Positions 5,281 through 26,173 of a stretch of DNA of 26,217 nucleotides are shown here, one piece after another. The notes beneath the pieces are model-generated. The model was not told where the DNA came from and ran no database searches. It saw only the letters and a list, made by a program, of their open reading frames with translations. A program made the translations under genes and the position numbers. How positions within the stretch are numbered: the first letter of the stretch is position 1; the number at the start of each line of letters is the position of its first letter. The stretch is from a virus, in the IMG/VR virus record IMGVR_UViG_3300043466_000440, positions 1 through 26,217 of that record; one strand, written 5' to 3'.

Positions 5281-5386
5281 TTTTAAAATATATAAAAAAA
5301 AACTAAATAAGTATAAAAAAAATAAACAAAAAAAGTTTAAAATATAAAATAAAAAAAGCAAAATATAATAGGGATAGCTATGCTTT
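5281..5386. other. A-tract-rich non-coding region
   Basis: No gene fits in 5212-5386. The plus strand holds A-tracts of seven to nine bases at about 5294-5302, 5315-5322, 5328-5334 and 5351-5357, with centres about 20, 12 and 23 bases apart, close to multiples of a helical turn. This suggests intrinsically curved DNA, such as an upstream promoter element or an origin-like region. Nothing more specific is visible. Confidence 0.35.
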
Positions 5387-20743: not shown

Positions 20744-21244
20744 TTAATCTTTTAAATTATAATCTACCATTGTTTCTACATCTTGACCAAACGCCTTTAT
20801 TAAATCTGTATCTATGTATTTTTTATATCCTGCTTCAAATGGTTTTGTAAAGAATAAAGAAGGTTTAATACCATTTAAAAAAACACTTCTTGCTATTGCA
20901 TATTGTAAACTTTGTCTATCTTCAAATTGACCTTTTTCATTTCTTGGTGCAATACCTTTTCTAACTATCCATTTATCAAACGCTTTTGCAGGTGGCATTT
21001 TATTTGTATAACTATAAGGTGTGTTGTATTTTTTTAATGTACCTGAAACTCCTTTATCCTGATAGTGTCCGTAATCTACCATTGTAAAACCTACAATAGA
21101 AAAACCATTTTCAGTTACTACTTCACCATCAATAGAATTATAAAGTTCCTTTGTACTATTTTTATTTCCTTTAGTTAAATTGCTTCTTGATTGTTGTATT
21201 ACATAATCTCTGAAGCGTTGTAATACTTTTTCAACTTCTAACAT
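20744..21244 (-). CDS. Tail completion protein, HK97 gp10-like
   Basis: The 166-residue protein resembles the HK97 gp10-like tail completion family, which helps join the tail to the head. An N-terminal helix ('VLQRFRDYVIQQSRSNLTKG') leads to 'STKELYNSIDGEV'. The family-like 'FTMVDYGHYQDKGVSGT' follows (about residues 53-69) and then a C-terminal part with 'IKPSLFFTKPFEAGYKKYI', where basic and aromatic residues recur. It overlaps the preceding tail terminator-like gene by seven bases. The pair, in this order, is common in siphophage neck/tail regions, though here they lie far from the portal. Confidence 0.7.
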   Translation of the reverse strand: MLEVEKVLQRFRDYVIQQSRSNLTKGNKNSTKELYNSIDGEVVTENGFSIVGFTMVDYGHYQDKGVSGTLKKYNTPYSYTNKMPPAKAFDKWIVRKGIAPRNEKGQFEDRQSLQYAIARSVFLNGIKPSLFFTKPFEAGYKKYIDTDLIKAFGQDVETMVDYNLKD

Positions 21245-21693
21245 TTGGTCATTTTATTTTCAATAGCAATATCAAAAGTAAAAGTTACACCTGCTATTTT
21301 GTTTTCAAAACGTTCTGTAAAAAATTCAATGTTTGCAGTACCATTTACTAATTCGTAATCTTCTGATAAATCACCTCTGTTTAATACTTCTAAGAATCTA
21401 TTTGCAACTGCTAATTGAGTGTTTAATACATCTTGTTCGTTATCATTACCTAAAAATATATCTGTAGTTTTAGATTTACTTTCATCTACAATATCCATAC
21501 ATAGAATAGATATATTATAATTTAAAACTGCACCTTGATACGATACAGAATTTACTATAATATGACTTAATGGAAATATAGTTTGTTTATTTAAATCTAC
21601 TTTAAATATATCGCCTGTTGTAACTGTATTAACAAATAAATCTTCTTGTAGTTTATTTTTAATTACTTGTGTTATTTCGTAGTATGTACTCAT
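21238..21693 (-). CDS. Tail terminator-like protein
   Basis: The 151-residue protein starts with a helix (MSTYYEITQVIKNKLQED), then strands including 'PLSHIIVNSVSYQGAVLNYNISILCMDI' and a closing 'AGVTFTFDIAIEN'. This alternation resembles tail terminator proteins (lambda gpU type) that cap the finished tail tube. Its ATG at 21693 overlaps by ATGA the stop of the -1 extension of the chaperone gene, not the stop of the zero frame. It overlaps the gp10-like gene by seven bases. The assignment comes from fold pattern and context. Confidence 0.6.
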   Translation of the reverse strand: MSTYYEITQVIKNKLQEDLFVNTVTTGDIFKVDLNKQTIFPLSHIIVNSVSYQGAVLNYNISILCMDIVDESKSKTTDIFLGNDNEQDVLNTQLAVANRFLEVLNRGDLSEDYELVNGTANIEFFTERFENKIAGVTFTFDIAIENKMTKC

Positions 21694-21944
21694 ATTTTTT
21701 TCTTAATTAAATCAGATTCTATTTTGTTTTTTTGCTTTTCAAATGTTAGGTATGTTAAACACTGGTTAATTGGTAGTTCGGTAACTCTATCAAATCTTGT
21801 AACATCTCCTTGAGCGATAGCATAGATTGATGAATACCAACCCCATCGTTTTCCAAATTGTGCTGTTGCAGAATAGTCTGCATCTGCTTGTTCTGTTCCA
21901 AATAAGTCATCGTACTTTTCAATAATTCGTTGCCTAAATTGTAA
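21690..21944 (-). CDS. Minus-one frame extension of tail chaperone
   Basis: From the TTA at 21944 the -1 frame is open for 84 codons to TGA 21692-21690. It encodes 'LQFRQRIIEKYDDLFGTEQA' and then 'GKRWGWYSSIYAIAQGDVTR' and 'LPINQCLTYLTFEKQKN'. The Trp-rich middle and Leu/Tyr/Phe pattern look like a genuine folded domain, unlike the Gln/Met/Leu-rich zero-frame end. Its stop forms an ATGA overlap with the tail terminator-like gene, as most gene pairs here do. Joined to the first 165 residues it would make a 249-residue protein, comparable to the gpGT fusion of lambda, which recruits the tape measure protein. A single-base error in the T run could also produce this picture. Confidence 0.75.
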   Translation of the reverse strand, partial: LQFRQRIIEKYDDLFGTEQADADYSATAQFGKRWGWYSSIYAIAQGDVTRFDRVTELPINQCLTYLTFEKQKNKIESDLIKKKI

Positions 21945-22438
21945 AAAAAAACATTAGCACCAAATACAACATCTAAAGGAGCGTGTTTCATTACATCTGA
22001 ATATGTAATACTACCATTATACTTTTCTATTTCATACGTGTTATTTAAACCTTTCTTTTTAATTGGCCTATATAATACTGCCATAGCTTTATGCATATTA
22101 TCCCAATCACCAATGTATGAATCTAAATCTGTATATTCGCCAAAAGTCATATCATCTAAATCAGGAATAAAACCAAATTCAACTCCACCAAGTTTAAATC
22201 TGTTTATAAACTTATGCGATTGCACGTTAAACATTTTACCTATAGAAGCTGTTATTTCTAATACATCTTTATACTTAATTTCAGCTACATCTTTTAAATC
22301 TATATTGCAGAACGTTTGAACCATCTTTTGATTCAAAAATTCAGCATCATCATTATCTTTAGCTATCTTTAGGAACGCCTGGTATTGTGATAACTTAATT
22401 TCGTTTAATTCTGTTGGTATGCTTATTTCTAATTTCAT
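21755..22438 (-). CDS. Tail assembly chaperone, zero-frame product
   Basis: The 227-residue zero-frame product starts MKLEISIPTELNEIKLSQYQ. It has a central conserved-looking 'FGFIPDLDDMTFGEYTDLD' (88-106) and 'KAMAVLYRPIKKKG' (117-130), a pattern I associate with tail-assembly chaperone-type genes of Bacteroidota siphophages. After residue 165 a run of nine T allows a shift to the -1 frame. Residues 166-227 of the zero frame (ending PNYQLTSV) may be only the end left when no shift occurs. Like lambda gpG, the short form would be the abundant chaperone bound along the tape measure. It follows a terminator at 22485-22513 without a clear new promoter. Confidence 0.7.
   Translation of the reverse strand: MKLEISIPTELNEIKLSQYQAFLKIAKDNDDAEFLNQKMVQTFCNIDLKDVAEIKYKDVLEITASIGKMFNVQSHKFINRFKLGGVEFGFIPDLDDMTFGEYTDLDSYIGDWDNMHKAMAVLYRPIKKKGLNNTYEIEKYNGSITYSDVMKHAPLDVVFGANVFFYNLGNELLKSTMTYLEQNKQMQTILQQHNLENDGVGIHQSMLSLKEMLQDLIELPNYQLTSV
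21944..21950 (-). promoter_or_regulatory. Slippery heptamer T TTT TTT for -1 frameshift
   Basis: In the zero frame the minus strand reads GTT TTT TTT TAC, a run of nine T (21951-21943). Slipping back one base on T TTT TTT keeps both tRNA pairings perfect and continues with TTA CAA TTT in the -1 frame, which stays open for 84 codons. This is the classic arrangement in siphophage tail chaperones. I did not find a clear downstream pseudoknot by eye. Confidence 0.75.
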
Positions 22439-25376: not shown

Positions 25377-25652
25377 CTAAATAAAATAAGGTCTAATTGT
25401 TAATACTCCTAAGCTAAAACCTAATGCAAACGCTAAAGCTATTAAGAATCTTCCGTAAAATGTTTTGACTTCTATTGTAAAATGATTCATTGGTAAACAT
25501 AAAAAAGGATTTATAAATACCATTCCTACCATCCCGTACCAGTTTTTTTCCATTAAAAAAGTAAAACTTGCTATGCTGTTTGCTTCTAAAACTATTGCAG
25601 ATATAAATACTATTAATAGTTTCCACCAAGTTATTTTATCTTTTACTATCAT
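25377..25652 (-). CDS. Small three-span membrane protein
   Basis: The 91-residue product has about three hydrophobic segments: residues 9-31 ('WWKLLIVFISAIVLEANSIA'), 38-54 ('WYGMVGMVFINPFLCL') and 69-88 ('FLIALAFALGFSLGVLTI'). It is thus an integral inner-membrane protein. It is coupled by ATGA to the DnaA-like gene above. Three spans would allow a class I holin, but the endolysin lies 19 kb away, so another role, for example superinfection exclusion, is just as likely. I recognise no family. Confidence 0.62.
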   Translation of the reverse strand: MIVKDKITWWKLLIVFISAIVLEANSIASFTFLMEKNWYGMVGMVFINPFLCLPMNHFTIEVKTFYGRFLIALAFALGFSLGVLTIRPYFI

Positions 25653-26173
25653 ATCTTAATATTGTTATTCATTTTATAAAATGCTTCTAATCTATCTTGT
25701 ATTAAATCAAACTGTATTGTACCTTTAGTGTTATTCATAAGGTTGTTTAAATCATCTATTATTTTGTATTCAAATCTTGGTCTATCTATTTGTTCTTGCA
25801 GTTCTTTTTTTAGTTTATCATTTTCAAATGTTAATTTATAAAGTTGTTGTTTTACCTTTTCAATTTCAGATAGTTCTTTTAATTCTGCTTCATTATCTAT
25901 TGTAAAGTAACTTAATATAGTTGCTTTAAACTTTTTTAATTCAGGGTTATATTCTTCATACATCTTATAGTTTTTTAAAGCGTGTATAACAGTAGCGTGA
26001 TTTAATTCTAATGTATCACCTATTGCTTGAAGTGTTTTATTTGGTTTTAATTGTTTTAATACATTACAATATAAAGAACGTAATTCAATAACTTCTCTTT
26101 TACGTGTTCTTATATCTATATTGGTGTTTGTTTCTTGCTTTATTATTTCTTTTAATCTTTCTGTTATTTCCAT
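25649..26173 (-). CDS. DnaA domain IV-like DNA-binding protein
   Basis: The 174-residue protein contains the C-terminal DNA-binding domain of DnaA without its ATPase. Residues about 22-69 show 'RTRKREVIELRSLYCNVLK', 'TLQAIGDTLELNHATVIHAL' and 'KNYK'. The NHATVIHA (58-65) corresponds to the DnaA signature DHSTVIHA that reads the DnaA box. A coiled-coil stretch follows (about 95-135). Such proteins occur in Bacteroidota phages and may recruit replication proteins to the phage origin or act as regulators. It heads the operon in the window and is coupled by ATGA to the next gene. The start ATG at 26173 has an A-rich leader, and an upstream gene may overlap it. Confidence 0.8.
   Translation of the reverse strand: MEITERLKEIIKQETNTNIDIRTRKREVIELRSLYCNVLKQLKPNKTLQAIGDTLELNHATVIHALKNYKMYEEYNPELKKFKATILSYFTIDNEAELKELSEIEKVKQQLYKLTFENDKLKKELQEQIDRPRFEYKIIDDLNNLMNNTKGTIQFDLIQDRLEAFYKMNNNIKI

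Follow-up and report, generated by a model that had tools for sequence, protein, structure and literature searches.

A gene in the virion-structure block of a viral contig changes frame by −1 at a run of nine T's and thereby codes for a short and a long product, and comparison of its homologues indicates that this two-product frame change is real, deeply conserved and far beyond chance. The contig, hereafter called the window, is the whole stretch of DNA that was analysed (26,217 bases, G+C content 27.5%), and the hosts of the virus are Flavobacterium-like bacteria. The complete explanation that we propose, in which RNA polymerase would slip on the run and the two products would form a pair of tail assembly chaperones, appears reasonably probable.

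The run is located on the minus strand (21951-21943) and is read in the 0 frame as GTT TTT TTT TAC, a phase that places the heptamer T_TTT_TTT within it. The 0-frame ORF (21755..22438, minus strand) codes for 227 residues, a gpG-like short product that consists of an N-terminal domain common to both products (residues 1-165) and a 62-codon 0-frame tail, and that corresponds to PHROG 32199 (function not known). The −1-frame extension (21690..21942, minus strand; 84 codons and a TGA stop) codes for a helical C-terminal domain with a WGWY motif, and together with residues 1-165 it makes up the long product of 249 residues. The segment from 21755 to 21942 is thus coded in both frames. Two codons past the run, a TAG (21934..21936, minus strand) ends the third (+1) frame, which closes at this place in 346 of 387 loci (see below). 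The −1 stop overlaps the start of the next gene in an ATGA (21690..21693, minus strand), and 61 bases separate the 0-frame stop from that gene. The latter (21238..21693, minus strand; 151 residues, PHROG 30964, function not known) is probably coupled translationally to the long product, given this overlap. Of these elements, the codons at the run, the 84 open −1 codons, the stop at 21690, the ATGA and the 61-base gap had been described in the initial annotation, and all hold on re-reading of the sequence. The slip run is the sole T or A run of at least nine inside the annotated ORFs of the window. Coding-strand T9 runs are also present between genes, at 5294, 11929 and 12513, and are possibly terminators.

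A first scan yielded 80 viral loci with 71-95% identity to the window. All 80 harbour T9 in the identical phase, and both frames are kept wherever the contig is long enough, including the −1 extension, whose persistence in relatives had been raised as a point on which the frameshift reading could fail. The same arrangement is found in distant relatives, namely the isolate Nonlabens phage P12024L, a Flavobacterium genome bin and two more Flavobacteriaceae genome contigs, and the homology of both frames is traceable to about 25% identity. Using profiles for the N-terminal domain and for the −1 domain, we collected 387 loci that match both, and clustering at 70% identity sorted them into 64 lineages. 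Because many loci are overlapping or related contigs, lineage counts are safer than locus counts. In all 387 loci, the two domains are coded in frames that differ by −1, and none has both in one frame. The junction run is T9 in 369 of them and T10 in 18, with no run of seven or eight T's in the 64 lineages. The programmed −1 frame change giving a short and a long product, as initially annotated, is therefore strongly supported, and the run length in relatives, chosen beforehand as the test that could refute it, came out in its favour.

The run was also sought among 2.9 million viral contigs, by a scan limited to one well-conserved form of the site. A T8 version of this form was found in none of them, T9 in at least 151 of the loci fetched, and ten or more T's in a single match (L092), in which an extra Phe codon lengthens the run and the frame relation is kept. 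Eight predicted viral proteins match the N-terminal and −1 domain models alike, suggesting that one-frame homologues exist. Only three of the approximately 1,200 Bacteroidota genomes searched carry the gene; prophage copies are thus rare, and the evidence comes mostly from viral contigs. Among isolate phages, a DNA similarity search gave no match, and a protein search identified P12024L/S as the only relatives, the weak matches to Escherichia phages being judged due to chance.

Genes 40 and 41 of P12024L, annotated as two separate hypothetical proteins, are read here as one frame-shifted gene. Its two halves correspond to PHROG 32199 and, in P12024L-like members, for the −1 extension, to PHROG 38404, both filed under function unknown. 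As annotated, gene 41 (L082, 3528-3695) lies wholly within the −1 extension, and its start is probably wrong. Flavobacterium phage 6H (L233, 10047-10927) carries a fold relative without a T run in the region; close to the corresponding position its frame seems to change, either through a different route or because of a sequence error. In two viral contigs, each about 35 kb long, a copy of the gene is present near both ends (L014/L039 and L206/L216). The copies of the first pair are unlike, with 90% and 84% identity to the window, and the two-copy contigs are possibly joined assemblies of two related phages.

In the mechanism that we propose, most messages would carry U9 and give rise to the 227-residue product. 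RNA polymerase, when copying the nine T's, would sometimes add one U (or drop two), and ribosomes would then read on in the −1 frame to yield the 249-residue product, in which the same 165-residue domain is followed by a different, helical C-terminal domain. Loss of one U or gain of two would lead to a stop two codons on. The two proteins would most likely act like lambda gpG/gpGT, i.e. as two tail assembly chaperones made in a fixed ratio. In most loci the −1 stop either overlaps the next start or directly adjoins it, so that slippage may also tune expression of the next gene. Such an effect on an overlapping downstream gene is reported for Shigella spa13 (PMC5009743).

The initial annotation had assumed that the ribosome slips. 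Ribosomal −1 frameshifting, in which tandem slippage of tRNA-Phe on T_TTT_TTT in the U9 message would give the long product as it does in lambda G-GT and P2 E-E', stays the main rival, but we find slippage by RNA polymerase moderately more probable on comparative grounds. In its favour, the T_TTT_TTT heptamer, of the X_XXY_YYZ type, is present in phase in every member, so that a ribosome could slip there too; TTC is never used for the two Phe codons; and the tail chaperone frameshifts described in a review are ribosomal (PMC5009743). Seven T's would suffice for a ribosome, yet the run is never shorter than nine and its flanks compensate each other. The run occurs in three phases and, with its flanks, takes the forms V/L/I-FF-Y/W/S/C (2+6+1), to which the V-FF-Y of the window belongs, G/S/D-FF-L (1+6+2), L-FFF-G (exactly nine T's) and several T10 forms. 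A left codon contributing one T (G, S or D) thus pairs with a right codon contributing two (TTG), an association with P = 5e-6 under independent flanks in the 64 lineages and 0.015 over 10 clusters at 45% identity. Across the 2.16 Mb of loci, T runs of at least nine hardly occur outside this site. It therefore looks as if the length of the run is itself selected, the flanking residues and the phase being free to change, with few independent events behind this pattern. The polymerase reading calls for some caution, since part of the run is constrained by residues needed in two frames as well, and there are few compensating changes.

Signals that would stimulate a ribosomal shift were also sought. 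None of AGGAG, GGAGG or AAGGA occurs within 25 nt 5' of the run in the 64 lineages, although this test is weak because the host group hardly uses Shine-Dalgarno sequences. A 93-nt stretch of RNA from the window folds slightly better than shuffled sequences (z −2.1), RNAalifold found no consensus pair past the run in an alignment of 22 diverse members, and a search of Rfam gave no match. We discarded a downstream RNA structure, as the strong base conservation past the run is explained by two-frame coding. In E. coli, ribosomes shift far less readily on U_UUU_UUU than on A_AAA_AAG, and bacterial polymerase slips with high efficiency in vivo at nine A's or T's, the RNA:DNA hybrid being 9-10 bp (PMC5009743). 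Slippage on T runs is listed for n > 8 (PMC3711429).

A role as tail assembly chaperone is likely, based on architecture and context: one N-terminal domain is common to two C-termini, the gene belongs to a structural block, and there are weak fold and tail-family matches. The N-terminal domain is modelled with confidence (mean pLDDT 80), its last helix passing through the slip site; the model of the −1 extension has four helices and a lower confidence (71). No sequence or fold match was found in the PDB, nor any match to known chaperones in Pfam. Predicted viral structures include many relatives without known function and sub-threshold matches to an annotated tail assembly chaperone and an annotated tape-measure chaperone, and a weak sequence match to a tail family was obtained. 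Sequence homology to lambda gpG/gpT was not found, as anticipated in the initial annotation, which had seen no obvious kinship to lambda gpG. The classical gpG/gpGT position proposed there does not apply: the gene comes just after TerL and is followed by small genes without known function, a pair of large genes that look structural and, five genes away, the likely tape measure gene, rather than standing directly between the major tail protein and tape measure genes. The analogy with the tail assembly chaperone frameshift of lambda G/GT (PMC5009743) is nevertheless the best functional reading, one that we regard as quite probable and that does not imply membership in the family.

Alternatively, the frame change might provide two different C-termini for some other protein of the tail or neck. 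This is consistent with the lack of matches to known chaperones in sequence and among solved structures and with the distance from the likely tape measure gene. We deem it unlikely, as the frameshifted extension of a shared domain, within a block of structural genes, and the weak fold matches to annotated chaperones argue for a chaperone pair.

Three other ORFs of the window were noted by eye, all on the minus strand. That at 134-676 resembles a phage-encoded sigma-70-type factor, and P12024L has a gene annotated as sigma-70 region 2 upstream of TerL. The ORF at 25649-26173 contains NHATVIHALK, which resembles the DNA-binding motif of DnaA domain IV, and the one at 1172-2020 is C5 DNA methyltransferase-like, with an SPCQ motif.

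We then considered the segment behind the run, in particular its 0-frame reading. On the 5' side of the run, the third 0-frame position is the most variable (0.36 versus 0.17-0.18); past the run, it is the third −1-frame position that varies most, and the −1 frame dominates from there on. To assess the openness of the 0 frame, −1 codons were redrawn among synonyms in 21 clusters at 50% identity. In the redrawn sequences, the 0 frame is usually closed within about six codons. The openness observed departs from this with a combined P of about 7e-21 over the 21 clusters, and upstream control frames are not significant. The 0-frame tail is thus more open than −1 coding alone predicts, which implies that about 60 codons are read twice. 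Judging from these patterns, the tail is under selection and is no by-product. Just past the run, many bases are invariant owing to the demands of both readings. The length of the tail, 16-84 codons across loci, is not universal: members of the P12024L group have short tails of 16-25 codons, part of the L228-L250 group has tails of about 20-50, and most other loci have 52-84 codons.

The initial annotation had offered a homopolymer error as its own alternative, i.e. an error of sequencing or assembly that splits a continuous 249-residue gene. T9 runs are error-prone, and the predicted viral proteins that match both domain models fit such a gene. An error would, however, have to recur with the same frame relation in 387 of 387 loci, whose sources are numerous independent metagenomes, one isolate phage and contigs of bacterial genomes, without ever leaving the conserved-form T8 in 2.9 million contigs, and it would not account for a selected 0-frame tail; this explanation is excluded for all practical purposes. 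That the −1 ORF might be a separate gene starting inside the 0-frame gene, the way gene 41 of P12024L is annotated, is equally hard to credit: its 84 codons in the window include no Met codon, an ATG occurs among the first 40 −1 codons in only 9 of the 64 lineages and at scattered places, and conservation of the −1 frame starts at the run itself. Internal initiation was rejected on these grounds. Phase variation, whereby T's gained or lost at replication would switch genomes between the products, was likewise rejected with near certainty, since long homopolymers are the usual switch for it but both T8 and T10 would be expected among genomes with this site, whereas T8 is never seen and the sole conserved-form T10 preserves the frame relation.

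Frameshifts in tail chaperones are a classic of translational recoding, and a programmed frame change in such a gene is of a known kind. Probably new are a T9 site of conserved run length, its likely transcriptional mechanism and a long tail coded in both frames; no description of such a frameshift in Bacteroidota phages was found in the non-subscription literature that was searched. We give about even chances to the broader proposal that polymerase slippage at 9-10 T's, a length matched to the RNA:DNA hybrid, and not ribosomal frameshifting, determines the ratio of two tail assembly chaperones throughout a large family of Flavobacteria phages, and that in most members the 50-80 codons past the run encode two functional C-termini. 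If so, the ratio of the two products would be set one step earlier, at transcription, and the 64 lineages would represent a large natural series for the length and context of slippage. Coding in both frames over such a length is an unusual constraint on the tail. Two PHROG families without known function prove to be one gene, and a search for T9 at this place can help to correct how Bacteroidota phages are annotated.

The gene shares with lambda gpG/gpGT and related chaperones a −1 change, an N-terminal domain common to both products with a frame-shifted C-terminal extension, and a place in a virion-structure gene block. It differs from them by the absence of detectable homology, by its position after TerL and not directly before the tape measure gene, and by a mechanism that is probably transcriptional. 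The slip site of lambda is GGGAAAG, instead of the nine T's found here, and its 0-frame tail has about four codons, compared with the 16-84 doubly coded codons of the present family. The E/E' frameshift of P2, a ribosomal −1 shift at the heptamer T_TTT_TTG, similarly involves a T-rich slippery site in a tail gene. That heptamer is read by ribosomes, whereas the present run always has 9-10 T's. Transcriptional slippage is reported for Shigella mxiE and spa13, Thermus dnaX and IS elements (PMC5009743, PMC3711429). These systems resemble the present one in slipping at A or T runs within a coding region, of nine bases in the best-known examples, with two products per gene. Those are cellular or mobile-element genes and this is a phage structural gene, and the accounts of them consulted mention no long doubly coded tail.
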